Below, piece after piece: positions 79 through 49,574 of a stretch of DNA of 64,000 bases. A program made the translations under genes and the position numbers. Under the pieces are notes generated by a model. The model saw nothing but the letters and a program-made list of their open reading frames with translations. It searched no databases and had not been told where the DNA came from. This DNA is from Anagrus nilaparvatae (lineage: Eukaryota > Arthropoda > Insecta > Hymenoptera > Mymaridae). The stretch's first letter is position 1. Each line of letters opens with the position of its first letter. Location: NCBI GenBank assembly GCA_022575985.1, contig JAKSXM010000007.1, positions 3,474,501 to 3,538,500 on the forward strand, written 5' to 3'.

Positions 79-502
79 GGGAGCAGAACATCAAAAGGCT
101 ATACCTAGAACTGAAGTGGATGGACCAGGATCATTTTCAAGAGGAACTCCGACACCTCTTCCAACGATTCGAAGTTATGAGGATACTTTGATGGTATACT
201 CCACAATTCCAGGATTTTGCTCTTACCGTGACAAATTTAATGGATCATGGTTTATCCAAATCTTCTGTGATGTAATGATGCACTACGCACGTGAAAAGCA
301 TCTAGAAGATATACTAAAAATTGTAATTTATCTATTAAGTGAAGTATTTTTAATCATCTGTGCATTTATTTAATTAAAGTTTTATTAATTACAGGTAGAT
401 TTTCGGATCCAAAATTTACGAACGGCTTATGAAGACTGCCAAACCCTTCAGATTATAAATGAAGGATTCAATAAATTTTGCTTCATAAACCCTGGAATTT
501 AA
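79..502 (+). CDS. Caspase, C-terminal part only (5' end outside window)
   Basis: Last two exons of a cysteine protease of the caspase family. Exon 79-322 follows an acceptor ending at 78, and exon 395-502 ends in TAA; the 72-base intron 323-394 is GT-AG. The first exon opens with the codon that completes the active-site pentapeptide (Arg-Gly), so the catalytic Cys exon lies off the left edge. It then carries the inter-subunit linker with an Asp in a VDGPG context (a possible processing site) and the small-subunit signatures YSTIPG and GSWFIQ. The last exon has the conserved C-terminal block ending CFINPGI. Exon boundaries and phases match the last two exons of the Gag-caspase at 17116-22258, so the two are paralogues. 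This copy has a linker four residues shorter. Whether it also carries a CARD or Gag N-terminus cannot be seen. Caspases act in apoptosis or, in insects, also in immune signalling. Confidence 0.9.
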
Positions 503-3920: not shown

Positions 3921-4559
3921 GATTATCTACTTTGCTTTCATCTATAAGTATAAATAATTATGCAAATAATTTTTGTTGTTTTTTTCAAAATTTTATTATA
4001 ATGTAGAAAAAATTATAAGGTCATACATAATAAATAAGCAGCTAAGAAAAAAAATGCCATTTCAAAACAAGCGCTTAAAAATGCCATTTCTTAAAACAAT
4101 ATAATTCAGAAATGCAAATTTATTAACTGTAAGTATATAAAAATAAATATATTTAGAGCTGTAGGTACTATGCAACGAGATTTTTAAAATTTTGATAAAG
4201 TTTAAATTTAATTTTTAAAAAATATACTATAAGAGTTATTATAAAATACTTTTTTTATTTATTTTATACGTAAATAATAAAATAATTTATTTTATTTTTT
4301 TTTATTTTTTTGGCCACCTTTTTTATAAACTGCGGCTAAATAAACCCATTTTTCAAAATCGGATTTCAGGGATACTATAAGCATGGTATTGGCAAAATTT
4401 TTTTTTTCGTGAATTTTATATCATATTCTGCAGGCATTGAACTAGGGATAAGAATTTTGAGCCACTTTTTATTGATTTTTTGGGATAAAGAGTATCAAAA
4501 TATTAGTCATTTTTCGTACATTTTCTTATTTACGTGCCAATTTTTTAATTTTCATTAAA

Positions 4560-5290
4560 ATTTCTTCTTCTTCAATGCCTTTTTAATTCAGATCACTCGG
4601 GGCAGAAAAATCATGGGCGCGGTTTTGGGCCTTATTTTTTTTACGTGCTTACTTCGCTGCCATTTTTAAAATACTTAGTAATTTGAACTGACGCTCCGTC
4701 GAAAGTAAGGCTTTGCACATTGATATTACTTTTGTGCAACCTAGTTAGTAAAAAACTTATATTAATTGAGCTTTTTCTTCAGCATTTAAGTCAAGGACTA
4801 AATAATGAGCAGCAGGTGCTTTAAATGTTCCATTCATGCATACTATAGTATAAAAACTTAAGCTTTTTTGGTTGGGGCATTACATTTAAATTTGGCTGTA
4901 AAAAATTACATTTCGTACATATAGATTTCGTTCATTTTCACCTTTAGCTACAATTTTTTTACTTTTTGGTGTTTTTTTACGATTGTGGTTAGATAATGAG
5001 CTACCTTAATCAGTACTAGCTGTCCATCAATGAAGCCTAGAATTCCACTAAACATCTGAATTAATGTACATTTCATAATATGTTACATTAAAGAACAGTT
5101 TTTTACCAGCTTCCCAATTGATTTTTACAATATCGCAAAGCAAATAACTTCCGCACATTTTCCTTAAAGCTTCGTAAGGTGGCTTGGAGTGAAATCTTAT
5201 AATATTTGAAAATATTTTTAAAGCCTCCAGATACATTGAAGTTTTTGATTTTTGGTTTTTCGTTCGCGTGATTAAGTCAAGATTAATTCC
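4560..5290 (-). pseudogene. Possible decayed transposon ORF
   Basis: Reading the minus strand gives several short protein-like stretches in shifting frames. The longest is 5236-5048 (62 codons), with a Cys/Trp-containing segment (KMCGSYLLCDIVKINWEAG) that looks more like real protein than random AT-rich translation. Stops and frame changes break it everywhere. I cannot name the family. It lies immediately left of the 1 kb palindrome. Low confidence. Confidence 0.25.
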
Positions 5291-5346
5291 TGTAAATAAA
5301 GTGGCAAACGCTGTAAGAATAAATATATATATATGTATTTAGACTG

Positions 5347-6347
5347 TCAAGGGGAGTTCAATACATTTGGAACACCGAATTACACCAAATGGTTATGGAT
5401 GAGTTTGTTATGTTGAAAAAACATGCCGACTACCCTCCGTTCCTTCCAATGGGCCTTCTGAGCCTAGAAATGCAGGGCTCAATGTTATAAAATAGGATTT
5501 TTTGGTAATTTTCAAAGAAACGCCAAAACCTCGCAAATTAACCAAAACTCTTCTGATTGGTCTCATTTTTTTGGTTTAAGTATCACCTTTCATACGCCGT
5601 AAACCGTAATTTATTATCACTAATTCTCTTATCACTATAGCCAATTAACCAAACAGTCATTTTTAGCTAAAAATGACCAATTTTTAAAATGTTGCCAAAT
5701 TTGTAATTTCTGACGAAAACGGGTTTTATAGGTCTGAAAAAATTTGTACAAGCTTCAAATTTCCAAAAATTTTTTGCTCGTCTCATTTCCTTGATTTGTT
5801 TTTAAGAAATGGCTCTTCAAAGTTAGCATTAAAAATGAGCTTTTTTAAAAAATCGTAAAATTGGGACTGTGACTTCAAATTATCATATCTGGTTAAAAAA
5901 TAATTGCAAAAGGTAAAGTCAAAAAGTTTTGGAAACTTGAAGCTTGTACAAATTTTTTCAGACCTATAAAACCCATTTTCGTCAGAAATTACAAATTTGG
6001 CAGCATTTTAAAAATTGGTCATTTTTAGCTAAAAATGACCGTTGCGTTAATTGGCTATAGTGATGAAAGAATTAGTGATAATAAATTGCGGTTTACGGCG
6101 TATGAAAGGTGATACTTAAACCAAAAAAATGAGACCATCTAGAAGAGTTTTGGTTAACTTGCGAGGTTTTGGCGTTTCTTTGAAAATTACCAAAAAATCC
6201 TATTTTATAACATTGAGCCCTGCGTTTCTAGGCCCAGAAGGCCCATTGGAAGGAACGGAGGGTAATCGGCATGTTTTTTCAACATAACAAACTCATCCAA
6301 AACCATTTGGTGTAATTCGGTGTTCCAAATGTATTGAACTCCCCTTG
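5347..6347. repeat. 1 kb foldback palindrome
   Basis: Nearly the whole 1001 bases are a single imperfect inverted repeat centred near 5847. It starts CAAGGGGAGTTCAATACATT and, on the opposite strand, the right end also starts CAAGGGGAGTTCAATACATT. Arms are about 480 bases with few mismatches (for example GGTTATGGATGAG versus GGTTTTGGATGAG). No transposase is encoded. It resembles foldback or long-TIR MITE elements; transcribed, it would form a long dsRNA hairpin. Confidence 0.85.
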
Positions 6348-8241: not shown

Positions 8242-11200
8242 ATGCCTGTGTGTGCAATAAAAGGGTGCAAAAATAATCCTGGTAGTAGCAAAGGCCTGAG
8301 TTTCTTCAGGTATCCAAAAGGAGAAAAAGAAATATTAGAACAATGGCTCAAAAACTCTAAATGTGATATTAATATTAATAATGGTAAGTAAAGAATTATT
8401 TTATTTTTTTATTATTTAATTATTTACACTAAGAAAAAAGTTTCGTCAGGATAACTAAATTTTGGTTACTATCACCAAATATTAGAGTATCTATAACCAA
8501 ATATTTTGTTGATCAATTCTTAACCAAATTATTTAGTCAAAATTACCAAATATTCAGTAGAAATATAACCAAAATAATTTTTTAAGAAATACTATTAGGT
8601 TATACAAATAAAATATAATTTAAAGTTGTAAAAAAAAAATAATAAATTATTTGAAATATCCTAAAATAATTGTAAATAATAAAAAATTTTAGTAAAAATT
8701 ATCAACACAACAAAATGTAAATTTACATATATTTTAATTTTAAGTTTATATTATCATTATAGATATTAAAATATTACGAGACAAATTATAACATCAAAAA
8801 TTGTTTGCCCGCCTGGGCGTGAAAATTTTTGTGAAATTATCTGAGCTACCCCAAATTTTCAAAATAACTTTTTAGATAAATAAAATTTTTAAAAAATAGG
8901 TAAAAAATCTGGTTGCCGGGGAAAAATCACTCCAGAAGAAAAAAAACCTTTTCTTTTTCCGAGGAAATTTAGCCAAATTATCGTCAATTTAAGATTTTAC
9001 TCAAATTTTTCTTAAAAAAGATTGAAGTTCTATATTGAAAAATACCTGTTTCTGAACTTTAAACATGCATTACTCGTTTGATTTCCATCGTAAATTAATA
9101 TTTTTTTTTTTTTTGAATCGATGTATTTTTCCCTGGCAATTCATTTTTTCATTAAAAAAAATCATTTTTATGTACCAAATTTCAAGGTTTAGGTCAAAAG
9201 CCTTTGAAAACTGTAAGTAGCAAAATTTACTTAACAGAGTTTTTGACCTAAAAATTGAAATTTTGTCAATGAAAATGATTTCTTTCTTGAAGAAATGAAT
9301 ACTCAGGGAAAAATTTATTGATTAAAAAAAAAATTTTTTATTTTACGATGAAAATCAAGCTAGTAATGCATATTTTAAATTTCGAAATAGGCTTATTTCG
9401 ATAGAATTTTAATCATTTTTAAGACAAATTTCTATAAAAAAAATTTTTTATTTTACGATGAAAATCAAGCGAGAATGCATGTTTAAAGTTCACAAACAGG
9501 CTTTTTTCGATATGAAACTTCAATCTTTTTAAGACAAATTTGAGTAAAATCTTAAATTGACTATAACTTGGCTAAATTTCATCGGAAAAAGAAAAGTTTT
9601 TTTTTCTTCTGGAGTGATTTTCCCCTGGCAACCAGATTTTTTACCTATTTTTTAAAAATTTTATTTACCTAAAAAGTTATTTTGAAAAATTGGGGTTCTT
9701 ACAAAAGTATACTTGTGAATATTTTCAAAAATTCTTAATAATTAATTTGTTAACTGAAAATACAATGTTATGGTATTAATCTTGTTTGTTTTTAGAAATT
9801 TTCCTATTACATTATCGTGGCATAACCTTAAAATTTTAAATTTATAAGCGCACAACAAAAATAATAGTTTAATTATAATTTTTTATTTAAAATTTTAAAA
9901 ATCCTAAAATTTTATGAAATTTAATAATTTTTCAAAAAATTAGCCACTACATTGAAAAAGATTTACTTTTTTAAGTTTTGTTGGTAAAATCTACTTAATA
10001 TTTGGTATAATCTACTGAATTTTTTGGTTCTGATAAATATATTTATCAAATTTTTTTATTTTTTACCTGGAAATAATTTCTTAATTTTACAAATTTCAAA
10101 CTATTTGCATAACTTAAAAATTTTTGTAAAAGATAAATATTTTTTAATTTTATAATTTTGTTAACAGCTCGAGCTTGCTCCGTACATTTTCTTCAAAAAA
10201 GCTTTGAAGAAGCTAAAAATTCACCGTATTCACAATTTTGTAGAAATCGTGGCTATGTTGTAAAATTAAAGTTAAAAAAAAATGCTATTCCTTCCGAGCT
10301 TATTGATGAAATTGTTATTGATGAAAATCCTCCTTTATCAACTTTAAATATTAACCAAGATATTAACTTATCCACTCCAATTCCTTTATTAAGAACAGGT
10401 ATAATAAATTGCAATGTTAATAGTAACATGTCAAAAGATAATTTTATCTCTTCCAAATTTGAAAATGCTCAGTCTGTCTCTAATTCTCCCATGTCAAATT
10501 TAAATATTAACTCATCTCCTCAAATTCCTATAAGATGTGAGACTAAAAGTTCAAAGAAAAAATTGAAGGAAAATGTTGCCCCTTCTCATTATCATAATAT
10601 CCAGTCTGTAAAAACTTCGTTATCTCCAAAAAAAAAAAAAATAAAGTTAATTAATAAACCTAATGTAGCTCATGCACTTTATAACATAGTTGCTCAAAAT
10701 TCTCATTTAGTGGATGGTCAACAAAATCCATCTGGTGAAATGGCATTTGGTAATGAAAATGACTTATCTAGAAATATGCAGAATAGGTTTGTGAAAATTT
10801 TTCAAATTAATTTTATTATATATGCTTTTTTGTGGGTTAATTTTTTATGAATCATTTTTAGCGAATCTCTTGCCGAAAGCGTAAAAGACAAGGATCTTTT
10901 GCAAAACAAAAAAAAAAAACAAAATTATGAACCAGAAATTTTATTTAGTGAAATGGTAAACAAATTTAACCGAATAACTGCAAATAAAAATCAGGCACAT
11001 GAGTAAGTTTATAAAAACTATAAATATGAGTAAATTATAAGAAAAAAATTTTATTTACTTTTTTTTTTAGTTATAGCACACATTTAAAAGATATGGAGAA
11101 AATTAATAAGATGTTTAATGAAAAATTAAAAATTTTAGAAGATACAAATAAACAATTACTAGGCGAAAATAAAAAATTAAAAAATGTTAATAAAATATTA

Positions 11201-13336
11201 CGTGATAAATTAAATAAGCAGCCAGCCTTAAAAACTAAAAGAGAAAAAAGGTTACAAAAAAAAATAATAGAAGCCAGAGTATACGAAGTACTAAGACCTG
11301 TTTTCACAGGAGGGCAAATAAAAAAATTACTTCACCCAGGCCAAAATCGTGTTATATGGTCTCCAGATGATATTGCTGCAGCAATAGCTATTAGAAGCGT
11401 TAGCCCAAAAGGATATAAGTTTTTAAGAAGAAAAAATTACCCTTTGCCTGCAATGTCAACATTGAGAAAATATGCTGCTAATGTGGAGCTAGATCAAGGA
11501 GTTCTTGAAGAAGTTATGCGAGTGATGAAATTTAAAAGTAAGAATAAAACAAAAAGAGAAAAACTATGTACACTTTGTTTTGATGAAATTCACTTGTCAG
11601 GTGAAATTGAAATTGATAAAAAAACTGAGCAAAGAGTAGGTCCTGCAAGAACTGCCCAGGTAGGCATGGTGCGAGGATTAGCATCTAGTTGGAAGCAGCC
11701 AGTTTACTATCAGTACGATCAGAATTTAACAAAGCAAATCGTTGAAAATGTTATTACACGATTGTATGACGCTGGATACACGGTTGTGTCTATAACCACT
11801 GATATGGGTACCTCAAATGTAGGTGTCTGGAACGATTTTAATGTTGGATTTGATCATGGTAATCAATCTTACTTTATTCATCCTGCAGATCCTTCATTAA
11901 AAGTTTTCGTTTTCGCTGATCCTCCACATTTGCTAAAATTGTTTAGGAATCATTTTTTCGATTCTGGATTCTATGTTGACAACGAGCATTTAAAAAAAGA
12001 AGTTTTAGAAGAGTTATTAACATTCAGTGACAAAAAGGATTATAAATTAAATCACAATTTGAAACAGGAACATCTTGATGTAAAATTCAGTGAACGTCAA
12101 AGGGTATCTCCAGCTTGCAAAGTTTTTTCAAATAATATTTCAGATGCAGTCAGTTATCTTGCTACGATGGGTGCCATGAAAAGTGATAATTGCATGCAAG
12201 TTTCAAAATTACTGAAGCTTGTAAATGACTGGTTTGACGTTTTTAATAGTAAAATATTTGCAGATTTACCATATGGCCTAAATTTGACGAACCAAAATAA
12301 GATTTTAAATGACATGACAACTTACATTGAAAAGTTAAGAGTAGGAAATCACTTGAGCTTAATTCCTTTTCAAAAAGGAGTCATTTTATCAAACAAATCT
12401 TTGCAAGGTTTGCACACTTATTTGAAAGAAAAATATCCTCAAGAAATGATAAACGATCATAAACAAACATATATTTTTACTAATAGGCTAAATCAAGATG
12501 TGCTTGAGAATTTTTTTGGATATATAAGGAGTATGGGAGCCTTAAATGTAAGACCATCGGCTTTGCAATTCAAATATAGGTTGAGATGGTACCTTCTTGC
12601 AAAACATAGCCAAGATTTGATCGTGAATAATCACAACAGCGAGGAAGATGCAGATGAAAGTTTTGTTACAATTTCTGATGGCGTTGGAAACCCAAATTTA
12701 CAAGATGATGATGAGGATTACGTTGACGTAGAAAAAGACTCGGAAAATGATGAATATGTGACTGACATTATGGGTACATGTTTTGACACAGAAACGGAAA
12801 TAATTAATCAAGTAGCAGAGGATGTGGACGAGGATGAGGAAAACGAAGAAGAGGAAAACCAGATCTTTGATTGTACTGACAGTGACCTTATGCAGAAAAT
12901 CCAGGACATTATACAAGAAGAAGCACTTATTTATGTTGCTGGATACGTTGCGTATCGTTTCCGAAATAAATATCCTTTTCTAGGAACAGCAACAAAAAAT
13001 ATAGCAATAAGTAACATACCCCCATGGGTATGTCATGTTTCTAGAGGAAACTTGAAATATCCATTAGATGCTTTGATAGAAGTTGGTAAAATACTTGAAA
13101 CTGAATTTCAAAATTTTCATGGTAACTTCTTATCCAATAAACCTGGAATATTTCAAAAAGTTGCTGACTTAGTTGAAAATAGGCTAACTCATCCTAGTAT
13201 TGTTCCTCGGGAAGTTATTTTATGTTTTGTGCGAACTCGAACTTATATTAGACTGAGGGAAATAAATTCAAAACGAAAAGAACTCAAAGATGAACGAAAA
13301 AAAAAAAGAAAAAACAATAATAAAAAATTTCAGTAA
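8242..13336 (+). CDS. P-element-type transposase with THAP domain (THAP9-like), 4 exons
   Basis: Exons 8242-8383, 10168-10786, 10862-11002 and 11071-13336 join in frame (3168 bases, 1055 residues), each junction with GT-AG sites. The N-terminus is a THAP zinc-finger DNA-binding domain split by intron 1: Cys4 and Cys9 in exon 1, Cys51 and His54 (CSVHF) in exon 2, then the LKKNAIPS motif. A low-complexity linker and a coiled coil (about 305-345) follow. The catalytic core has Asp472 (CFDEIHLSG), Asp545 (TTDMGTSN) and Glu780 (VLENFFGYIR), with P-family blocks GLASSWKQPVYY and ADPPHLLKLFRN. An acidic stretch and a Lys-rich tail close the protein. The start was chosen because THAP begins at the first residues. 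AATAAA lies at 13407. It is longer than Drosophila P transposase (751 aa). I found no terminal inverted repeats, so it may be an immobile or domesticated copy. Confidence 0.92.
8846..9697. repeat. Palindromic element inside intron 1 of the P transposase
   Basis: Left arm begins GAGCTACCCCAAATTTTCAA; the right arm ends with the near-complement around 9680-9697 (TTTGAAAAATTGGGGTTC). Arms contain TCTGGTTGCCGGGGAAAAAT and the matching block near 9620. The same core sequence forms the middle of the larger palindrome at 13.6-15.9 kb, so the two belong to one family. AT-rich arms with ACCAAATATT words may extend it outward to about 8430-10060. Non-coding. Confidence 0.8.
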
Positions 13337-13599
13337 ATTATTTTAATATTAACCTTGCTCTATTAATTGAAATTAAAATATTAGGATGAATTCATTCTTA
13401 CATTGAAATAAAATGAATGTTACGAAGAATATATAAATATTATTATCAATTGTTACAGATAAAATTAAATATTTTTAATTTTATTTTAAAATTAAAACAA
13501 ATTAAATTAATTTTACAGACATAAGTTATGTAAAGTATTGTAAATATTATTGAAAATAATATGAAAAAAATTATAATATACAACTGTAATGAATATGTT

Positions 13600-15900
13600 T
13601 TTTTTCAGAAGTACATTTTTTTTATGAATAAAAAAATTACAAGACTATTCTTACTATACATTGTTAAAAATACCCTATGTTAAATATACGAAATTATCGT
13701 AAAATTACGAATTTGTCGTAATTTTACTAAAAAAATGTTATATTTATTAAAAAAATCGTTAATTTACAATCGTTAGGAAATTTACAACAAATTCATGATT
13801 TTACGATTTTTTTCGTAAATATAAGAGAGGATCGTAAATTTACGAATTTTCGATGTATATTTATTAAAGTGGTTAATAAAAAATTAATCCAACTATAGAC
13901 GTATTATCGGCTTATATTTATGTACGTTTACTTCTGAAAAGTCTTAAATTTACAAAAGAAATTGTAAATTTACTGAAAAAATTGTAAAACGAAACAATTG
14001 TGTATTTGTGCATTTCTACGAGAAAGTACTTTTCATGAGCATCAAAAATGAATGAAAAAAAATTTACGAGTCCGCGCCTGCCGCCATGATTTTCTGGTAG
14101 TTTGAAAACTATAGAATGCAAAAAAAAGCGTGAACACGAAATCGGCAATGGATACCAAAAAGATTTTGTCACTTTTATGTCAAAAACCGTGTTTTTCGTA
14201 TCTGAGCTACCCCAAATTTTCAAAATAACTTTTTAGGTAAATAAAATTTTTTAAAAATAGGTAAAAAATCTGGTTGCCGGGGAAAAATCACTCCAGAAGA
14301 AAAAAAAAACCTTTTCTTTTTCCAAAGAAATCTAGCCAAGTTATCGTCAATTTAAGATTTTACTCAAAGTCTTAAAAAATATTAAAGTTCTATATTGAAA
14401 AATACCTGTTTCTGAACTTTAAACATGCATTACTCGTTTGATTTCCATCGTAAATTAATATTTTTTTTTTTTTTGAATCGATGTATTTTTCCCTGGCAAT
14501 TCATTTTTTCATTAAAAAAAATCATTTTTATGTACCAAATTTCAAGGTTTAGGTCAAAAGCCTTTGAAAACTGTAAGTAGCAAAATTTACTTAACAGAGT
14601 TTTTGACCTAAAAATTGAAATTTTGTCAATGAAAATGATTTTTTTCTTGAAGAAATGAGTAGTCAGGGAAAAATTAATTTATTAAAAAAAAAAATTTTTT
14701 ATTTTACGATGAAAATCAAGCTAGTAATGCATATTTTAAGTTCCGAAATAGGCTTATTTCAATAGAATTTTAATCATTTTTAAGACAAATTTCAGCAATA
14801 ATATGCATTACTAGCTTGATTTTCATCGTAAAATATTAAATTTTTTGTTAAAATCTATTAACTTTTCCCTGAATATTCATTTCTTCAAGAAACAAATCAT
14901 TTTTATTGACCAAATTTCAATTTTTAGGTCAAAAACTGTGTTAAGTAAATTTTGCTACTTACAGTATTCAAAGGCTTTTGACCTAAAACTTGAAATTTGG
15001 TATATAAAAATGATTTTTTTTAATGAAAAAATGAATTGCCAGGGAAAAATACATCGATTTAAAAAAAAAAAAAATTATTAATTTACGATGAAAATCAAAC
15101 GAGTAATGCATGTTTAAAGTTCAGAAACAGGTATTTTTCAATATAGAACTTTAATATTTTTTAAGACTTTGAGTAAAATCTTAAATTGACGATAACTTGG
15201 CTAAATTTCATCAGAAAAAGAAAAGTTTTTTTTTTCTGGAGTGATTTTTCCCTGGCAATCAGATTTTGTACCTATTTTTTAAAAAATTTATTTACCTAAT
15301 AAGCTATTTTGAAAATTTGGGGTAGCTCAGATACGAAAAACATGGTTTTTGACATAAAAGTGACAAAATCTTTTTGGTATCCATTGCCGATTTCGTCTTC
15401 ACGCTTTTTTTTGCATTCTATAGTTTTCAAACTACCAGAAAATCATGGCGGCAGGCGCGGCCTCGTAAATTTTTTTTCATTCATTTTTGATGCTCATGAA
15501 AAGTACTTTCTCGTAGAAATGCACATTTAAGATCGATCGTAAAATCGCGATTTATTTAGTTAATTTACGAATTTTTTTTAGTAAATTTACAATTTTTTTT
15601 GTAAAAAGATTTTTGTACATAAATATAAGTACATCTGTAGATATAATATATGGTGTATGGTTGGATTAATTTTTTATTAACCACTTTAATAATTATACAT
15701 CAAAAATTAGTAAATTCACGATCCTCTCGTATATTTACGAAAATAAATCGTAAAATCACGAATTTGTTTTAAAATCACTAATGATTGTAAATTTACGATA
15801 ATTTCGTATATTTAACATAGGGTATTTTTAACAGTCTATAATAAGAATAATCTTGTAATTTTTTACATAAAAAATATGTACTTTTAAAAAAAAGCATTTT
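13600..15900. mobile_element. 2.3 kb foldback palindrome
   Basis: A very large imperfect inverted repeat centred near 14750. Outer arms carry TTGTTAAAAATACCCTATGT near 13660 and its complement near 15830. Middle arms hold a higher-GC block (14065-14180 and 15350-15470) that reads as the same short frame on both strands simply because it is inverted. Inner arms match the element at 8846-9697. Arms are rich in CGTAAATTTACGA words. No transposase is seen, so this is a non-autonomous element. A further fragment with the terminal GGGTATTTTTAACAGTGTA lies at about 15900-15980. Confidence 0.85.
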
Positions 15901-15979
15901 TTTTTTTGTAAGTTTACTAATTTTTTGTTAATTTACGAAAATGTTGTATAATTACCAAAGGGTATTTTTAACAGTGTAC

Positions 15980-17115
15980 TTATTTAAGAAAAGAAAAAAT
16001 AAATTATTTTATACTCAGTGTTTTGAATTTTATTTTCCTGAAGAATTTTATTTTTATTAATTAAAAGTTATTTATTTTGAATATAAATGAAAAAAAAATT
16101 ATTATTTAGATATTTATTTATTAAAAATTTTATATACTTAAACCAATAAATTTTAATTATCAAAAAAAAAAATAATATTAAAAATTTTATAATAATTTTT
16201 TATTATTAAAAAAATAATTTTTAATTTTAAAATTGAATGCATAAGAATAAATTATAAAAATTATTGCATTCAATAACGGACATAAAAAAAAAAAAAAAAA
16301 AAAAAAAATAAATTACTCTGACAAGAATCGAACTCTTCTTAAAAATCTCTTGCTGCTGCATGGAGTATATTTATATGGATATTAATTTTTCAATATAATA
16401 CATGTATTACACATACTAATATAAATACGTCATTGGTACAGATCCGATCTAAAACGACGAAAAAACGACGAACCCCGATTGAACTCTGCGTCATGCTAAA
16501 CCTTGTCTACTATTTTTAACCATGAGTGGGAGATAAGTATTTTTTCTCTTTTCCTCTCGTTGCTTTTATCCTTTTCTATTTGCACGCCGCTGCGATGAAT
16601 CACTGCATGCCAATTGTGGCCGAGAGATTTCGAGATGTTGAATATTCCGTATAAAAATATTTCTCGCGTTTTTCTTTTTACTTTTGCCAGAATTTCTCTC
16701 ATCATTTAATATTTTTGTAATTTTAAAGTAACTAATTTTAAAGTCTTTTTTTTCTTGAATACAGAACATTTCAAGTAAAGTACAGTGCAAGAAGCATTAT
16801 TGTACACGCAATTAAACTCGCATTTCTCTGGATATTTCATTCTTCTCTGATAAAATCTGAGTAACATATCTCGAATGCGAAATATAGTCTGTTTTTTATA
16901 ATATAGGAAGTGCATCTTTAGTATACTTTATGGTGTTGAGTAAACAACTTTGCTTATTTTTATAAATAAAAGGCAGTGTTCAAAAAGGAATTTATAATCA
17001 TATATTATACATTAATAATAAATAAACAAGTGCCTCAAAGAAAAATCGTTAATTTCTACTTATTAATTATAAATTAATTTTAAAGTGAAACAAATAGAAA
17101 TCATAATCAATAATA
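15980..17115. other. Upstream region of the Gag-caspase gene
   Basis: AT-rich, with a run of about 24 A at 16281-16306. A block at 16440-16910 of more balanced composition holds only overlapping minus-strand frames that I do not believe. TATAAATAAAAGG at 16961 is a good TATA candidate about 150 bases before the ATG at 17116. A TGTTGAGTAAACAA word at 16933 resembles the start of copia-type LTRs, but no matching second LTR was found. Confidence 0.45.
16955..17115 (+). promoter_or_regulatory. Putative promoter and 5' UTR of the Gag-caspase gene
   Basis: TTTTTATAAATAAAAGGCAG gives a TATA box at 16961-16967. Transcription would then begin near 16990, leaving a short AT-rich 5' UTR without upstream ATGs before the start in AATAATAATGTC, a good insect start context. 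It is unclear whether this is a host promoter or the remains of an LTR promoter. Confidence 0.4.
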
Positions 17116-20100
17116 ATGTCAACTCCAATTTTTAATCATGTTATCTCAATAACTGAAGAAAATTATTTTGCGTGGAAAAATCATGTAATGTCTCTTTTGG
17201 TCGAAAAAAATTTAATAGATGTTATAAACCTTGAAGAATTCCCAGAAGATGCAAACTGGAAGACAAGAAATAACTTAGCTAGATGTTTGATTATGGCTAA
17301 CCTAGCAGATTCACATATTAGTTATGCTAGTGGTGAAGATATTTCAGCAAAGGAAATATTTAGAAAATTGGATTCAATCTATGAATGCAATAAGTGCCCC
17401 AGTCAATGGGAAATTGAAAGAAAGATTTTAGCTTTACGAGCAGATACTGATATATCTATGGTAAGTCGTTTAGAGAAATTTAATAATCTAATCACTCTGG
17501 CCAAAGCAAATGGTAAAGATATAGATGAGACTGATTTAATCACTAAATTCTTAAACTGTCTTCCAACAAGTTATTCTAAATTTATCATAGATATTATTGG
17601 AAAAATGGTAAACAAACCAGAAATTAACTTTGCTTTTGTAAAGCGTCAGCTTCTTCTAGAATATGATAGCAAACTAAACGAAATGGACGATAACATTAGC
17701 ATTAATATGTTACCATCTATTGCTAACAACGAATTATTTACATCAATAAATTGTAATAAATGCATCGAAAATAAGAAAGGTAAATACTAAAATTTTACAG
17801 AATTATCTCAGTCTTTTTCTACCAAATTACTTTATATTCATTTTTCATCCCATTCGTAATTTTTTTTCAAAAATCATTTTCCAGCTCAAGAATCAATAAA
17901 TGAAGATATTTGTAAAAAAATTGATTCTTTAATATCTAAGGAAGATTATTTGTCAACTATTGAAATGGATCCTGTATGGCTAAGATTATTTGAGCATAAC
18001 GTTTTCAATGCTGATGATAAAAAGATTTTGAATTTGGTGGTGAATATTTATTTATGTTTATTTAAATATATTAATATATATATTTTCATACCATATGCAA
18101 TATTTCAGGAAAATTTTTCAAATTGGGAATCTAGAAAAAAAATTTTCTTAGCAATAAAGTCCAAAGGACTAAATGTATATATACTTTTTATGCACATTTT
18201 GTATGAAGTAAATCATGAAAGAATCGTGGCAACATTTGATAACGTTTCTCAAGAAGATGAAAAAAGTATTGAAAATAAATTAATAAAGTAAGCAAAAAAA
18301 ATTAATTTATTTTATTAAGGGAGTTGACGCGTGGAGGAAAGAAGATATATTTTTTTTCGGACTTCTTTCTTCCTCTCACGAGTTTCGTATAAGAAATTCC
18401 AAAATGTTTTTGTTTATATTTCTGTAAATAAACTCCTAAGAACTCTGAAATTTTTTCAGTGTGTTTTTATAATAATAAATTATATTTTAACCAAATATTA
18501 TCAAAATCTGTTTTGTAAATTTTGTACAATACGTACTTATTTATATTACATACTTATTCACCGTAAGAGATTTTAAGAGCTCCAAACAAAAAATTTACAA
18601 AACAGATTTTGATAATATTTAGTTAAAATATAATTTATTATTATAAAAACACACTGAAAAAATTTCAGAGTTCTTAGGAGTTTATTTACAGAAATATAAA
18701 CAAAAACATTTTGGAATTTCTTATACGAAACTCGTGAGAGGAAGAAAGAAGTCCGAAAAAAAATATATCTTCTTTCCTCCACGCGTCAACTCCCTTAAAG
18801 CAAATTTATTACTATATATGACACCCCTCCTCAACAAAATTAAAGTTTACCTAAAATTATATATACTTTTTACAGTCAAAAAATTTTTGTAATGTAAAAA
18901 AACAATTGAAACGACTAAAACACACAAATTTTTGCCTTTCTTTTTTAATCTTATAAACCAAACAAATACACATTTAATATCAATGTATTTAATCATTTTA
19001 CATTTTTTTAATAGCCTAATGCTTCTAAATTCTGAAATAGTCTGCTTAAGTAATTTCTGAAGCATACGTAGTTCAAAGAAATTTTGTCTCCAGAATCAGA
19101 TTCTACGGAAAGTTTCCTATCTAGACCTAATAGAAAAAAATTTTCATGTTAATCTGAGTAGTTTACAGAAAAAATAAGAAGAATTACCTCTCATTTTTCT
19201 TACTTTTTTTATAAGAGACTAAAACACAAAAATGGTTGCCGAAAATCGAGATTTCGCTCTAGGAGGCTTAAAATTGGACTAGTGGTCTATTTTTGGTAGT
19301 ACAGTCGTCCCTACTTATACGCGGGGGTTCGGTTCCAAAAAAGTACCGAGTATACGAAGACAAACTTCTTATGGGAAAATGAGGGTTACGTTCTCAAATT
19401 TTCAAATGAAATACAAAAATATTTTCTGAAATCTCACTGTTTTATTGGCATAAGTACATATGTATATCTATTTCTTTTGCAAAAAATCAGTTATACGTGT
19501 TTGTTTAATTTTTCGACAATAATCCTTGTGAAGATCCTCTTAAATTTTGAGAGCTAAATCACATGAATTTTTGAATCTCAAGCTACGAGTCATCACTGGA
19601 TCTTGACTGAGAGCCTCGTCAATCGCACTTTGAACCAGATGAATGATTTTTACTATAGATTTAGAGTGAAAATTTCTCTCTAAGTCTTCTTGAGGTTGTG
19701 GCAAAGTTGTTTTTTCCTGGTCAACCAATATAACCATTTGCTCTACATCCTCGGTGCTCAACGTTTCTGATTCCGACATGACGATTTCCAAAACTTAAGA
19801 AGATTTATAATTTTGACTTTGTCGGCAATATTGAGAACTTTTCTGCATTTCTTATTTATCGGAGAATTTTTTTTCGATGGAGCCATGACTTTTTGATGAT
19901 TTCAATTTAGTGCGACAGAGACTGTTTTATTTACGAGCGAAATATTGGTTATGTTTTCTCAAATAAAAAAAAAAAAAAAATTGAATAAATACGTTTGATT
20001 TTACGAATCCGCGTAAATCGAGGGAAAATCCGCGTAAAAGTAGGGATAGGAAAAAAGCATCAAACCGCGTAAAGCGAAATCCGCGTATAATGAGGGACAA

Positions 20101-22258
20101 AAAAGTACCGCGTATACTTTATAAAGTACGCCTGTACTTTAAGAAAAAAACTTTGGAGTAGTTTCGAAGGCCCGACTTTCAGTTTCACTCTCACTTCATT
20201 TAAATTTACCCAATATAATTATATTACTTTAAACTATCATTATAATAAATATAAAAAAACTCCAATCAGATCTGGTTTAGACTACAAATTAAAAAAAAAA
20301 ATAATAAAACAAAAAATTTTAACGATCTTTTATGGCCATGAGATCGTATACATTAAAAATTGCGTAAAATAAACGAAAAATATAGTAAAATTTAGGGTTG
20401 CTGAATAAGGGACAAAAATGTATCCTATTTTTTCTTATGATTTTTTTTTCACTTTTTTGATGATAAAAAAGTGCTTTCTCGTCGAGTATGGTAAGGAAAG
20501 TTGAAATTTAGAGCCAATAAAAATTAATGAAAAAAGATTCAGAACCCAAAAAAACCGTATTACATCAAAAATAAATAAATTATCCAAAGAACTAGATTTA
20601 ATACCAATTAATAAAATTAATAACAAATTTAGTAGCACATTTAAATGTTAATATTTTTCTACAAATATTTAGACACCTTATTTTTTCAACAAATGAAAAC
20701 TTTTTTTCGATTATCCAACTAAAAATTCAATATTTTGATTTTTTGAACAACCCTAATACTTCATATCTACTTATCATTAAACATATTAAACTTTAGCAAG
20801 TCAACTCAAAAGGGCATTCAGAAGCTTTGAACTGTATTTTTTAAGAGATGCTGTTTCTGGACTTAAACTTGCAAGTTCGATTTTTTTGGCTACCCGATTT
20901 CGATTAATTGTTGTTGACGCATAGAAAAGTCCCTCAAGTAGTTTTTTATTGGCATTTAAGGTAAAATTTAATTTTGCTGAGGAGGGGAGTGTATACAGTA
21001 AACATATTAGAAAAATTTTGTATTTCTAAAATCTTTCAGTAATGATGATTATTATACTAAAGTAAATACGTCGAATGAAAAACTCAAAATTAAAGTCAAA
21101 AAATCATTAAAGTATATGAAATCTCCTGACGACAATATTCAAACATATGCTATGAAAAGTAGGCCACGAGGCTTAGTTTTAATTATATCAAATATAAAAT
21201 TTACTAATTTAAGTAAAAGAGAAGGTGCTGATAATGATTCAGAAAATTTAAAAGATTTATTTCAACAAATGGGCTTCGAAGTTTTCGAATTTTTTAATTT
21301 AAAAACTGACGTAAGTAAATAACGAAGCATTTTTTAAATTATAGAAAGTGTTAATGAAAATAAATATCTTTTTTAGGAAATAATTAGCGAAGTCAAAAGA
21401 TTTTCAGAATTGCCAAAGTTGAAGCATGTCGATTCCGTATTTACAATAATTTCAACTCATGGATTTGGAGAAAAGGGCATGCTAAAAACAGAACTTAAAG
21501 GATGTGATTGGAGTGAACATAATACTAATCACGTTTATTGCTCAGATATTGTTGACTTTTTTAGTCCTGCAAAATGTCCAGGATTGATAGGAAAGCCAAA
21601 AATATTTATGTTTCAGGCTTGCAGGTAAAAGAATTATTAATATATTTCCATTAACAGTATGACAATTTACAAAATCAATTGTAATAATGAAATGTTTTAT
21701 TAATTTTGACTAAAAAAATAGTTATTTATGAAACAAGTGATATAAAGTTATAATAATATGACAAATGCGAAGGTTTACAACTTTTACGCACACTGTTAAA
21801 TAAAAGATTTTTTAAAACTTTTTAGGGGCAAAATTCATCAAAACACTATTTATAGAACCGATGTTAGATCTGAGATGGATGGATCAGGACCGTTCCCAAA
21901 AGAAACTCCAAAATCCCCTCTAAATATTCGAAGTTATGAAGATACTTTATTAGTTTATTCAACAATTCCCGGGCATTGCTCTTATCGCGATAATATCAAT
22001 GGAAGTTGGTTTATCCAAATCTTCTGTGAAGTAATGATGAACCACGCACGTGAAAAGAATTTAGAAGACCAATTTAAAATGGTGATTTGTTTATCAACTA
22101 AAGTTTATTTAATCATCTGTGTATTGTAATTAAAGTTTTATTAATTACAGGTAGATTTTAGGATGAAAATTGTACAAACGCATTATGGCAATTGCCAAAC
22201 CCTTCAAATAATAAATGAAGGGTTTAATAAATACTGCTTTATAAACCCTGGAATTTAG
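17116..22258 (+). CDS. Gag-CARD-caspase fusion (copia-type Gag joined to an initiator-type caspase), 7 exons
   Basis: Exons 17116-17779, 17885-18039, 18109-18287, 21040-21310, 21377-21624, 21826-22081 and 22151-22258 (TAG) join without a stop: 1881 bases, 626 residues, all junctions GT-AG and phase-consistent. Residues 1-221 are a copia/UBN2-type Gag (NYFAWKNHVMSLL; a WEIERKILAL helix; FLNCLPTSYSKFI), ending in a vestige of a zinc knuckle (CNKC only). Residues 222-333 read as a CARD (KKIDSLISKEDYLSTIE; RKKIFLAIKSKG). Residues about 345-626 are the caspase: RPRGLVLIIS, His451-Gly452 in STHG, Cys505 in QACRG, an Asp-bearing linker near 518-524, then YSTIPG and GSWFIQ. CARD plus caspase is the initiator (Dronc/caspase-9) architecture. 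No protease, integrase or RT follows the Gag. Its 3' exons match the caspase at 79-502. Gag-caspase joining is inferred from splice frame, not transcripts. Confidence 0.85.
18315..18798. mobile_element. Hairpin MITE with TTAA flanks in intron 3 of the Gag-caspase
   Basis: Near-perfect inverted repeat. Left end TTAAGGGAGTTGACGCG at 18315; right end CGCGTCAACTCCCTTAA finishing at 18798. Arms run about 215 bases with a loop near 18525-18585. The short frame seen on both strands is the same sequence inverted, not a gene. TTAA on both sides is the target duplication of piggyBac-type elements, so a piggyBac-like non-autonomous element is the best guess. Confidence 0.85.
19085..20175. repeat. Older interspersed repeat split by a pogo-like element
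   Basis: The flanks 19085-19301 and 20135-20175 together match 53570-53800 (words TACTTTTTTTATAAGAG, AAAACACAAAAAT, TTTTTAGTAGTAC then TTTAGAAACGATTTAAAGACCCGA) and, inverted, 56550-56700. The match resumes exactly on the far side of the inserted element, with TA at both junctions. It therefore serves as an empty site for the insertion. Confidence 0.75.
19302..20134 (-). mobile_element. Pogo/Tigger-like DNA transposon, internally deleted
   Basis: Ends CAGTCGTCCCTACTTATACG and, inverted, CAGGCGTACTTTATAAAGTA, followed by the typical Tigger words CGCGGGGGTTCGGTTCC and CGCGTATAATGAGGGAC, with TA on both sides. The minus strand 19791-19540 keeps an 83-codon frame resembling the extreme C-terminal tail of pogo-type transposases (helical, SAIDEALSQDPVMTRSLRF). 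The DDE core and DNA-binding region are missing, so it cannot transpose itself. It lies in intron 3 of the Gag-caspase. Confidence 0.75.
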
Positions 22259-22597
22259 AATATTAAAGATTTTTTTACTCTCATATAAGATAATAATATA
22301 TTTAATCATAAAATATTCAACGCTGCGTGACCGCAAAGACGTATTTTCTCACCACAGTCGCAGAAAAATTTTATACGACCCTCGGCCAAGTTAACGTGTG
22401 ACCAGTTGTACAATAATGTAAAACGGAAGAGCGAAGAGCTGAAAGTCATCGATCAATCCTGGGTCATTTTAGCAAACTTGTAGTCCCTCTCTTTATTAAT
22501 AATTACTAAAAACGTGCGTGAAGCGCTGTCGTTTAACATAAAGATTAAAAGTACTATAATAACTGAACAAATGAAAAATCTTTGTCCGTTTCGACTC

Positions 22598-22843
22598 TGC
22601 AAGAAAACAGGGCGAGTCTCATCAGTGTAATCTCTGGGGTGGAATTTTTGTTTTTCACCGCGCGCACTAATCTAGTTTTTGTTTTCCGTTATATAGTATT
22701 TTGATGTAGTTTTCTGTCATGCCAACTTCATTTAAAAAACATTAAGTCGGTATCACAAAAAACCATAAAATATAGAAAATGGAAAACAAGATTAAGGTTA
22801 GTGCGTGCAGTGAAAAACAAAAATTCCACCCCTGTTTTCTGCT
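22598..22843. repeat. Imperfect palindrome (MITE-like)
   Basis: GGGGTGGAATTTTTGTTTTT followed by CACCGCGCGCACTAA on the left matches the complement of the right side (TTAGTGCGTGCAGTG then AAAAACAAAAATTCCACCCC). AGAAAACAGG words lie at both ends. Non-coding. Confidence 0.7.
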
Positions 22844-23009
22844 TTTTAAATATGAACAACAAAAAAACAAAAAAAATCTTTAATAATTTACAAAAACAAA
22901 AAAAGACTTACATTTTTTAATCACATCAAAAAGAGATCATTAGTATTTATACTATTTTCTCATTATTATTATTGATTTTCCAAGTTTAATCAAATTTAAA
23001 CAAATATTT

Positions 23010-23680
23010 TTAATTACTTAGCTAATTTAGTGTGAAATGGTAAATATGTGCCTATACCTTGTTGCCTATTGTCCAAAAAAAGCATATGATATTTGAAATC
23101 AACGAATTTTCCCTCAAAATATGAGTTTTTCGTAATTTTAATGATAGCAAGAAAATTTGCAACAAAGTATACGCGCTAAAAATAGTCCTGTCGCCAGCAA
23201 TGCTATTTAATGCCTTAAAATTCCATAAAAGCTCCATGGAAAAAAATGAGTTATTTTTGTTTTTTGAACCACTAAACACGAATCCGGGGTCTATTTCGCA
23301 AAATTGAACACGAATTTGGCAAAATAGGCCCGGATTCGTATTTAGCGGGTCAAAAAACATAAATACCACCCATTTTTTTCATGGAGCTTTTATAGTATTT
23401 TAGGATTTTATGACATAAAATAGCATTACTGGCGACAGGACTATAAATGAAGAATATAAAGTGCCATTATTACAAGTCAATATATTAAAGACTTGATTTT
23501 ATAATTATAATCATTGTATTTTATAAATGTTTTTAATTTAATACTTTTTTATAACTTTTTATAATCGTTTAAATTTTTTAATAATAAAGATATACGTATT
23601 TTTTTTAATGACATTTTTTCATTTAAAATTTAAAAGCCTTAAAATTTTTCTAACTGTCTATTTTATATTTTTATATAAAA
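23010..23680. repeat. Duplicated 3' flank of the caspase genes, copy 2
   Basis: Matches 3130-3540 in order and orientation, except that a 261-base hairpin element (23183-23443) has inserted just before TATAAATGAAGAATATAAAG. The equivalent site in copy 1 lacks the element. It sits about 750 bases after the Gag-caspase stop; copy 1 lies about 2.6 kb after its caspase stop. Confidence 0.75.
23183..23443. mobile_element. Hairpin MITE inserted in the duplicated flank
   Basis: Starts TAGTCCTGTCGCCAG and ends CTGGCGACAGGACTA. AGCTCCATGG and CCATGGAGCT-type words flank the inner loop. Absent from the homologous sequence near 3290, so the insertion is younger than the flank duplication. The target duplication is probably TA. 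Confidence 0.8.
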
Positions 23681-23984
23681 TATTAGTTCTATTAAGTTTA
23701 ATTAAATCTGAATTGGAGTTGAATCATAACTTGTAAACTATCTGATATATAATTTTTTGTTATGAGCCATTGTGAAATTATTTATATTTCCCAAGGCCAA
23801 ATGATTCTAAGGACCTAAACTTGGATTATTCTAAGCCACATTTGAATCCCCCCCCCTTCTCAAAAAATATTTTTGCACAGTCTATATTTAAATAAATTTT
23901 AATAATATATATTTATAGTCTTTATATGTATATAGTCAAGGCACCAGCAATGTTAAATGCATCCAAAAATTTTATTAGCACGAG

Positions 23985-24400
23985 AATGGATCCTTCTCAG
24001 TGAAAAGTTTGTATTTTTGTTCACTGAAAATGGTTGTGAAGGTTTCATCCATTTTCGGATGGCCAATTTTGAGTAATGAACGCTATATCATAAAAAAATT
24101 GCCAAAAATTAGCAAGATAGGTAAATTCTTGAAAAGAATTGCTAATTGAGCCTATTTTTGATACCCAGTAAGGTTTTTGGGGTCGCTGATCACAATTTTG
24201 AAGACAAATTTTTAAAAATCAAAATGGCGAGGCTCAATTAGCAATTGTTTTCAAAAATTTACTTACCTTGCTATATTTTTGACGACTTTTTATCATATAG
24301 CGTTCATCACTCCAAACTGGCCATCCGAAAATGGATAAAACCTTCCAATTCGGTTTCAGTGGCCAAAAATACATACGTTTCACTAAGGTGGATCCATTCT
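23985..24400. repeat. Imperfect palindrome
   Basis: Left arm has AGAATGGATCC, CATTTTCGGATGGCCA and GCTATATCAT; the right arm has their complements in reverse order (GGTGGATCCATTCTT near 24389). The centre lies near 24190. Non-coding. Confidence 0.7.
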
Positions 24401-24750
24401 TCGAATAATTTTAATTTAGGGACTTGCAATAATTCAGGTTAAGGGACTTAGAATATTTTCGATTTAGTGACCTAAAATAATACGCGTTTAGGGAATCAGA
24501 ATCGTTTGGATTTAGAATTTTAACAGATAGTAAAGGTGATAATTTGTAATTTGTAATTATAATTTGTGTCTATGCTCAGCCGTAAGTAAATATGTTCCAT
24601 GCATTTTGGTTGTGTTTACACAAACCGGTTATAATCTTTTTACGTAAGTATGTAACCATCTTTACATTTATAAAATATCATTTGCCACCCTGTTTTGAAG
24701 CAAAAGACAAAGCGTCTATCAATCGGTTGCACCGTTACTAGTGGGTTAAA

Positions 24751-26862
24751 TTATTCTGAAATAGTGTCTAAAATCCATTTGACATAAAAGGCCACTTTTG
24801 TGTAAACACCTGGAAAACCTTTTGTACCACAAATTCTTTTTCCAAAACTAACAATTCCATATTGCACATATCGCATTCTACCTTGATAAAAAATAGGTGC
24901 TTGTAATGGTCCACCACTGTCACCATTACAAGCATCTTTATTAGCTTCACCACCAGCACAAATTTGTCTATTATTAATAACAACACAAGGTTGATCTTCA
25001 AATGCTAGAATACAATCATTTAAAGATACTAATGGTAAGTAATGTTTTTGTAAAATATTTTTGAAAGTTATGCCTGATTCTGATGCACCCCAACCAGTCA
25101 TTACAAAATTTTTTTGATGCATGTATGATGCAGTTCCTAATGGTAAGCAGATTGGTCGAATATTTGTATTTTGATTATTTTGAAAAATTATTTTTTCCTT
25201 TAATCTGTAATATAATAAACTAAATTTTTAATCCTGGACAAAAAAATAAGTATTTTAAGAAAGCTTTGTTACCTTATAAGTGCAATATCATTTTGAAAAT
25301 TTGTAGAATTGTAATCAGGATGAACATGGGTATTTTCAATTTCATAATCTTGAAAATCAGCACATTGATAATCGTATCCATTATCAGACGTTTCACAATT
25401 TTTTTCTGCTGAAAGATCATAAACCCCAACTCTGACTTCCATTAACTTGAAAGCTGAAAATAAAACATTTATTTGGTTTTTTTAAAGAAATAAAAGTATT
25501 CAAATAATTTTGTAATAAACTAACATTTTGAAAAATTTATACAATGTGCTGCGGTCATGATATATTTTTCATTGATAATTGTTCCACTAGCTAAAAATAC
25601 CATTTCATTGTAGTCAATGTATTGATAAGTTAACAAAGTCATCCATGGAAATTCATAAATTTTAAAGGATTGGTTGATTGGACCACATAATTTGCTGTTA
25701 ATTAAATGTAAATTAGGATGCGCAAATATTGGTTTTAAATCAGTGTTAAAATTTCTGTTTTCAATTCCATTTGTTTTTTCTAAATCATTTTGTACATTTT
25801 TAACTGAAATAAATGCATATTATTAGATTTAATCCATAAAATCTGTGGCGGACAAAACAAGTCACCTAATTTTTATCATTGCGTCCTTCGAAAAATACAT
25901 CTTAAGAACAAGCGCTTTTTTCAAAGCTTATTTTGCAGACAAAACTTACTGCTCAGATAAAAAAGCTTATATCATTCAAAAATCTAACTTTCAAGCCAAG
26001 GGTTTTCAAGTTTACTAAATTTAAAAATGAATATAAAAAAAATCTAACATTTAATTTACACTGAAAAAACAAATTTCACTTTTGGCTAACGGAATTTTTT
26101 TTTGCTCAAACGATTGCAAATGACCTGAAATATAAAGAAAATTCAAAAAAAAAAAAATAACATTTTACATATCTAGGGCACAAAAAAAGCCCATTTTTCA
26201 CCCTATGGAGACAGCGTTTTTGCCCATTATATACTAAACTATGATTTAAATTATGAAATAAAATATTGGAAAAAAATTTTTTTTATAATTTTCTTTACGT
26301 TTACTGTCATTTACAATCGTTTAAGCAAGAAAAAAAATTCCGCTATCCACAAACGGAATTCTGCTAGTCGCAAGTTCAATATTTTTGCTAGCGGAAAACG
26401 GATTTATTTTTCAATGCTAAGAGCTAAAAACCCTACAAAAAGGGATTTAAATGGGCGAAAACTTCAATGTGACATGTTGATTTTTGAATTTAGCAACCTC
26501 GAAAATCCCGGCCCAGGCTATAAATTTTGAACAAAAATTAATAATAAGCTTTTTGTCAAAGAGGGACGTTTTTGTCCACGGAATTGGCCTAAAAATGCTT
26601 TTTTTTATCTTAAACTCTTAATATGTTTTTTATCAAGGTTCGGAAGTTAAAGTTGACTGTAAAACAGATATATCGATAAGTTTTTTACATTCAAAATTTT
26701 TGGAAATTAAAGCTGCTAGGTATCAAGTGACACGTTTTGCCTGCCCCAACTAGGTTCAGATAATTTTATTACAGATTTGTAAATATACTAACATGAGAAT
26801 ATTTTTGATGTAATCAAGGTCATGAAAATAACTGCAAAAATTTGTAGTGCTAGTGAGGACAT
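24751..26862 (-). CDS. Secreted S1 (trypsin-like) serine protease without a standard activation site, 4 exons
   Basis: Minus-strand exons 26862-26793, 25803-25525, 25453-25273 and 25204-24751 join in frame (984 bases, 327 residues) with GT-AG junctions. Residues 1-23 form a signal peptide, so the product is secreted. The triad is intact: His110 (TAAHC), Asp172 (NDIALIR), Ser273 (GDSGGPL). Asp267, six residues before the Ser, predicts trypsin-like specificity. The extra Cys pair near 136-147 and the EFPWM block are typical of arthropod CLIP-family proteases, yet no CLIP domain is present. Where R-IVGG/IVNG should stand there is PINQSFKIYEFPWM, lacking a basic residue and the IVxG N-terminus. 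The Cys that normally precedes GGSLI is Ala95. Activity is therefore doubtful. It could be a venom or immune protease homologue. Intron 1 contains a palindrome at 26059-26416. Confidence 0.88.
26059..26416. repeat. Palindromic MITE in intron 1 of the protease
   Basis: Begins CACTGAAAAAACAAATTTCA. The right side holds the complements CGTTTAAGCAAGAAAAAAAA and GCTAGCGGAAAACGG, ending near ATTTTTCAATG. The centre lies near 26230. Non-coding. Confidence 0.65.
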
Positions 26863-49255: not shown

Positions 49256-49574
49256 TATTTGAACGATCTGCGCAAAAAAGAGAACAAAATTTTAAAAAAA
49301 TCAACCATATAAGAATGTATAGATTTCTTTGATATTTATCATGCTTTTAGTAATAAAAAAATTATCTACATGGACCAAAAGTACATTTATTTTTATCAAT
49401 GCTTTAGAGGTCTGAGCTCTCGTTTTTAGATAAAATAACTTGCTCATTTTCATAATATTTTTTATGTGATTAAATTTTTATATAAAAAAATTGTACGAAT
49501 TATTTTCATCTTATATTATTATTGTTAGAATTTATTAGGCGCAGGCGCGGCCAATTAAATTTTAGTATTAATAA

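Follow-up and report, generated by a model that had tools for sequence, protein, structure and literature searches.

A copia-type Gag capsid exon lies in frame with a Dronc-like CARD-caspase in the wasp Anagrus nilaparvatae and is predicted to be joined to it in a single protein

The locus and its predicted exons

The stretch of DNA analysed here (the window, 64,000 nucleotides (nt), corresponding to C62:3474501-3538500 of the 488.7 Mb genome of the mymarid wasp Anagrus nilaparvatae, with a GC content of 25.9% and zero N) carries an exon for a copia-type retrotransposon Gag capsid protein immediately upstream of a Dronc-like gene with a CARD and a caspase domain. Seven exons, listed below, were predicted to make up one gene in an earlier note made from the letters alone. 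When joined, they do give a single unbroken reading frame of 1881 nt, i.e. 626 codons followed by TAG, with no internal stops and with phases that agree throughout when exon 2 is ended at 18039. From here on, coordinates are those of the window unless a locus is named.

17116..17779, + strand: exon 1, copia-type Gag capsid, 221 codons from the ATG plus 1 nt; stop-free, without a zinc knuckle
17780..17884, + strand: predicted intron 1, 105 nt, phase 1, GTAAAT...TTTTCCAG
17885..18039, + strand: exon 2, taken as the first part of the CARD by alignment with Athalia rosae P0001 and the paralogue L003
17896..17898, + strand: ATA codon (Ile226), opposite the initiating ATG of L003 and Athalia P0001 Met1 in the alignments
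18109..18287, + strand: exon 3, taken as the remainder of the CARD, plus a linker
18288..21039, + strand: predicted intron 3, containing repeats, including a perfect 209-nt inverted repeat
21040..21310, + strand: exon 4, start of the caspase large subunit; PF00656
21377..21624, + strand: exon 5, caspase catalytic His451 (THG) and Cys505 (QACRG)
21826..22081, + strand: exon 6, inter-subunit linker and small subunit (GSWF); PF00656
22151..22258, + strand: exon 7, end of the small subunit; stop TAG at 22256-22258
79..502, + strand: last two caspase exons (79-322 and 395-502) of a tandem copy, the rest of which (Gag relic and earlier caspase exons) precedes the window in locus L009

The Gag exon encodes a capsid and lies in no recognisable mobile element

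Exon 1 matches the Ty1/copia Gag capsid family PF14223 at E 2e-15 (57.1 bits against a cut-off of 27, model positions 4-168 of 172). Over residues 14-207 it matches the Drosophila Copia virus-like particle (VLP) protein 8vvw at E 9e-22, with 57 of 190 aligned residues identical, and the capsid homology with Copia Gag and with the copia elements of this genome extends over about 190 residues. The earlier description of exon 1 as a full copia/UBN2-type Gag therefore holds for the capsid but not for the whole of Gag, since the exon carries the capsid only, and the zinc knuckle, zf-CCHC, is absent among the family matches that the joined protein gave at E values of 10 or less. The reported absence of pol is confirmed for the stretches flanking the exon: in six frames of 13400-17117 and 17780-21041 there is no Pfam match at E 0.1, leaving protease, integrase and reverse transcriptase unmatched. 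No pair of long terminal repeats was found in 15000-25000 (repeats of at least 40 nt) or in 15500-19500 (repeats of at least 22 nt). In these respects the window Gag differs from copia elements, and a complete or mobile copia element at the Gag exon was rejected. The copia primer-binding-site word of locus L041 occurs twice in the window when 3 mismatches are allowed, both times away from the Gag exon. L041 itself (4480-5864) is a broken copia element in which the leader and the beginning of gag are duplicated in tandem.

Of the 258 candidates in the genome search for Gag, 150 were scored; these yielded 108 Gag matches, and the identities that follow apply to that scored set. The best other full-length Gags are 42-47% identical to the window Gag, many of them within long copia frames, while closer matches are partial (50% over 142 residues, 48% over 121, and 54% over 91 for the relic in the tandem copy). 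A recent insertion of the Gag was rejected, as no full-length Gag among the 150 scored candidates, besides that of the window itself, exceeds 47% and both tandem copies carry a Gag. A candidate second domesticated Gag on contig C147 (L012), a frame of 226 residues that looked short, was discarded on being found within a broken copia element. Protein searches recovered no relatives with the Gag part (0 of 217 candidates) or with the joined protein (0 of 7995 scored), and none were found in scans of viral contigs.

The caspase part and its CARD

The earlier reading of the last four exons as a caspase with its His and Cys in place is borne out: the joined protein matches PF00656 at E 2.7e-43, and the catalytic His451 (in THG) and Cys505 (in QACRG) are both present. 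The closest solved structures are those of Dronc (3j9k, E 6.1e-38; 2fp3, E 7.6e-36), also known as Caspase Nc, which like the window gene has a CARD followed by a caspase domain. A protein search with the caspase part found 55 relatives among 2060. The best full-length match is P0001 of Athalia rosae (34% identity, query coverage 99%), again a CARD followed by a caspase, and the paralogue L003 in the same genome (contig C234) has 190 of 394 residues identical to the window protein. Between the window gene and its tandem copy the caspase parts have a synonymous divergence (dS) of 0.59, a nonsynonymous divergence (dN) of 0.20 and thus an omega (dN/dS) of 0.34, with no stops in either copy. The caspase exons are constrained (omega 0.28-0.34).

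Exons 2 and 3 align with residues 1-83 of the Athalia CARD-caspase, whose CARD is annotated, with a score of 100 against a shuffle mean of 28, and 0 of 2000 shuffles score as high. The same stretch also aligns to the N-terminus of L003, and exons 2-3 are taken as a diverged CARD that would not stand at the N-terminus of the predicted protein.

NEMD at residues 188-191, which resembles SEMD at 521-524, was considered as a self-cleavage site between Gag and CARD; EMD occurs also at 248 and the relic differs at 189, and the site was not used. A second Dronc-like caspase is found on C234 beside L003 (L042, 6018-8308). No CARD match was found there, and its last frame extends well beyond the usual caspase end, with pairs of Cys that look like a zinc finger.

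Absence of the start codon used by two relatives and the predicted first splice

In L003 an ATG leads directly into the CARD, and the aligned window codon, 17896-17898, is ATA. The DNA around this position is alike in the two genes, with CAATGAAT against CAATAAAT, followed by the common downstream run GTAAAAAAATTGATT. Met1 of Athalia P0001 aligns to the same ATA. The CARD exon of the window thus lacks the start used by two relatives, both of which have their Met at the beginning of the CARD, whereas in the window a Gag of 221 residues precedes it. An ATG-led first exon in the right phase is at hand in the Gag exon, which, given the ATA, likely supplies the start of the window gene. One half of what the earlier note had named as grounds for giving up the fusion is therefore observed, in that relatives begin at their own CARD; the other half is not, the Gag being neither recent nor riddled with stops.

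Donors were scored with splice-donor weights. The donor at 17779 (AAG/GTAAAT), described earlier as clean and matched in phase to the acceptor at 17885, lives up to that description, with a score of 2.73 (2.7295) that falls within the range of the other donors of the gene (1.7 to 3.6 if exon 2 ends at 18039) and with consistent phases. On this strand of the window, 74 of 2573 GTs score at least as well, from which simple arithmetic gives a chance of about 4% of finding a phase-matching donor this good within about 110 nt after the capsid domain. The donor at 17779 is further favoured by the word GTAAATA(C/T)TAA, beginning at 17780, which the tandem copy has conserved behind its Gag relic. Outside the Gag exon, three phase-matching donors scoring at least 2.73 can be reached from an ATG in the upstream 10 kb, none of them within 5 kb.

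Further downstream, the perfect 209-nt inverted repeat of predicted intron 3 (18315-18798, 27 nt past exon 3) has a 66-nt spacer and TTAA at both ends, and looks like a recent palindromic transposon. A hairpin formed by it in the pre-mRNA could have an effect on the splicing of intron 3.

The tandem copy and its Gag relic

The second caspase, which ends at position 502, has its earlier exons and a Gag relic upstream in L009, and so provides an internal comparison, with a dying Gag, within the same genome. The relic is 77% identical to the window Gag over 272 columns, with weaker similarity across the N-terminal part and flank; at its beginning it offers neither a start codon nor a clear match to the first residues, and it carries deletions and frame breaks. 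In the caspase tree the two C62 caspases are sisters (support 92/95) and L003 branches next (86/90), neither fork reaching the 95/80 at which the tool stars a node. Because the tandem copy carries the relic before its caspase exons, the pairing of Gag with caspase predates the duplication, the Gag having adjoined the caspase before the two copies (caspase dS 0.59) parted.

No match to the CARD exon was found in the tandem copy (L009). Unrelated DNA occupies L009 7790-9120 in place of the CARD exon region, the caspase exons being still open, and the donor of exon 6 is poor (ATT/GTAATT, -4.2). The tandem copy may use another start or may be dying.

Survival of the Gag reading frame

The neutral branch length leading to the window copy was jointly estimated at 0.26 substitutions per site. 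In neutral simulations, which ignore insertions and deletions and assume both that the Gag was intact at duplication and that the caspase-based branch is valid for it, the ATG and open frame were kept in 78 of 4000 runs at 0.1 substitutions per site, in 8 of 4000 at 0.175, and in 0 of 4000 at both 0.29 and 0.36. Selection on the Gag exon is supported, because the open frame has outlived the neutral expectation at the estimated branch length. A lower true divergence would weaken the argument, as the runs at 0.1 indicate.

Rate tests on the Gag were confined to a reliable block of 84 codons (82 in the branch fit, together with 282 caspase codons), which excludes the N-terminal half of the relic. 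A previous codon alignment of Gag and relic (omega 0.82, dN 0.41, dS 0.50, over 145 columns with 5 relic stop columns dropped) was rejected since its N-terminal half was misaligned.

Observations that weigh against a single selected protein

Several results speak against reading the locus as one protein with a selected Gag module, and they concern splicing, the CARD and the rate of Gag evolution. Within the Gag exon, the donor-like site 17460 (ATG/GTAAGT) scores 5.66, well above the 2.73 of the donor at 17779, and its join would be out of phase and frameshifted; at 17332 (GTG/GTGAAG) lies another, scoring 2.84, which matches the phase of exon 2 and would keep roughly the first third of the Gag. 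Weaker donors offer two (score at least 1.7) or three (score at least 0) alternative first exons outside the Gag within 5 kb upstream. If intron 1 is retained, the Gag frame stops at 17788-17790, 9 nt past the donor, and retention would instead yield a predicted Gag-only protein of 224 residues.

As to the CARD, the hidden Markov model search of the joined protein that recovered PF00656 gave no match of the Pfam CARD model to exons 2-3. The assignment of these exons in the earlier note is thus backed by the alignment with the Athalia CARD region but not by the family model. With a 17-row profile of CARD-caspases the score of exons 2-3 is marginal: they narrowly exceed the top score among 500 shuffles, and do so only with the Athalia row included. 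AlphaFold models were poor, with predicted local distance difference test (pLDDT) values of 59.5 and 41.7, the single-sequence CARD model having included the translated intron 2, and a fold search with that CARD model returned nothing below E 2.

Finally, the pairwise dN/dS of the Gag between window and relic is 0.59, with a bootstrap interval of 0.30-1.23 (84 codons), which is not significantly below 1. On the branch to the window Gag, omega is 0.24-0.25 with p 0.24-0.25 (82 codons, with three outgroups whose branches are saturated). In the same fit the relic Gag has an omega of about 0.3 (p 0.05-0.07 when tested against 1); constraint thus acted on the relic as well during part of its past, and it cannot serve as a clean neutral standard. 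At the 29 residues that differ between window and relic, outgroup copia Gags favour the window 11 times, the relic 7 times, both twice and neither 9 times, a weak skew. The claim that the preserved frame argues for selection is supported by the simulations, while the dN/dS of the Gag is not significantly below 1. The broader proposal, that a domesticated Gag became the N-terminal module of the caspase, gains from the ATA in place of ATG, the Gag relic of the tandem copy, the survival of the frame and the distance of other Gags (42-47%), and is held back by the rate tests and by the exon being capsid only.

A proposed explanation and its rivals

We suggest, tentatively and with somewhat less than even confidence, that the unbroken Gag capsid exon in frame with the Dronc-like CARD-caspase is part of a single predicted protein, the caspase of which would likely be activated upon co-assembly of its Gag into a retrotransposon capsid. 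An old copia fragment would have inserted upstream of a duplicated Dronc-like gene, and its reading frame would have come to be joined by splicing to the acceptor ahead of the CARD exon, taking over the start codon. Clustering activates initiator caspases. Many copies of the fusion in one lattice could therefore bring their caspase domains together and activate them, the dense packing arising only while intact copia Gag assembles. The means of joining such a lattice is suggested by the Drosophila Copia Gag, the assembly of which needs the zinc finger of its nucleocapsid (NC) and RNA; without NC it does not assemble alone, and co-assembles with intact Gag that carries RNA (PMC11835246). In the same manner the knuckle-less window Gag would form no shells by itself and would join the RNA-filled shells of intact Gag. 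Cells with many copia capsids might then be killed, or the particles damaged, with proteolysis as the least outcome. The sensor role is put forward as a hypothesis. Its fullest form, in which the host has placed a copia capsid protein without its RNA-binding end on an initiator caspase and uses the growing lattice as a platform for cell death, is possible, though we consider it doubtful.

The fusion could also be real with the Gag as a scaffold that oligomerises the caspase in general, be it for death or for some other role, and not as a sensor of copia capsids. We regard this as rather unlikely, yet as an explanation to be taken seriously. Gag capsid domains do self-associate, and with a diverged CARD another oligomeriser could replace recruitment to an apoptosome. 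The evidence for the fusion as such (the single frame, the few alternative first exons, the ATA for ATG and the survival of the frame) is common to both explanations. What separates them is the zinc knuckle, which was not found: Copia Gag without NC does not self-assemble (PMC11835246), which makes joining the shells of others the likelier behaviour. A plain dominant-negative restriction factor, whose Gag poisons assembly and whose caspase activity is incidental, would have precedents in the Ty1 group, where yeast Drt2, a derivative of Gag, restricts Ty1', with whose particles or assembly complexes it associates (PMC10951436), and p22 of Ty1 is likewise a Gag-derived restriction factor (PMC4599808). 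It seems very improbable for a gene that has its catalytic residues and whose caspase exons evolve with omega below 1.

The remaining two explanations deny the Gag exon a part in a working fusion. It might be a separate domesticated Gag gene with its own stop at 17788-17790, the caspase using some other, unrecognised first exon; the stop so soon after the donor, an AATAAA at 17895, and the two to three weaker first exons within 5 kb upstream are all compatible with this. Nevertheless we judge it unlikely, since the CARD exon follows the Gag donor after only 105 nt, the phase and the donor fit, the CARD exon is without the ATG of its paralogue, and the donor word also follows the Gag relic in the tandem copy. 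Alternatively the whole gene may be a decaying duplicate, with the Gag a passive relic that is stop-free by luck, as the broken Gag and missing CARD match of the tandem copy and the non-significant Gag dN/dS tests would allow. This appears improbable for a gene in which all seven exons are open, the catalytic residues are kept, the caspase exons have omega 0.28-0.34, and a neutral Gag frame of about this age survives in none of the 4000 simulations.

Other features of the window

Upstream of the Gag exon, 11030-13333 (+ strand) holds an open frame of 768 residues resembling a P-element transposase (PF21787, PF21788, PF21789, PF12596). Exons of a trypsin-like serine protease (PF00089) lie at 24754-25819 (- strand). 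Two frames that resemble each other, 632 and 635 residues long, at 47396-49291 and 58955-60859 (both - strand), have no Pfam match; we take them, from their resemblance, to be putative insect ionotropic receptors.

Relation to known systems and significance

Capsid sensing and the activation of caspases by induced clustering are each known. In-frame joining of a host gene to a coding piece that was inserted or came from a mobile element is also known, from host-transposase fusions and from TRIMCyp, and such host-transposon fusions create a new domain order by in-frame joining, as is predicted for the window gene. We know of no host-transposon fusion that pairs a capsid with a caspase. To our knowledge, the domesticated Gags Arc, the PNMA family and Gagr are of the metavirus type and not of the copia type. 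They are Gags kept by their hosts (Arc, PMC11835246; PNMA and Gagr, PMC11011659 and PMC7231272), and unlike the window gene they have no caspase fusion. Drt2 and Ty1 p22 are, like the window Gag, pieces of Gag, which interfere with or join the particles of their relatives, but they consist of Gag alone, with no death-protease effector. A related case of host-transposon fusion is provided by F-box genes (PMC12062965), from a screen of proteins for transposon-domain fusions; its main text makes no mention of caspase, CARD or gag.

A search of the literature, covering titles and the beginnings of abstracts among the open-licence papers listed, found no description of a Gag-caspase fusion, in agreement with the earlier note, which knew of no described gene with the order Gag-CARD-caspase. 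Domesticated Gags, CARD-caspases and transposon-host fusions are each known, and it is the combination of a capsid with a CARD-caspase that is new in the literature searched. If true, the fusion would be a case of a host gene whose start codon has been ceded to an exon of transposon origin, and, if spliced and active as predicted, its product would be a sensor of retroelements with its own killing enzyme, made from the capsid of the parasite.

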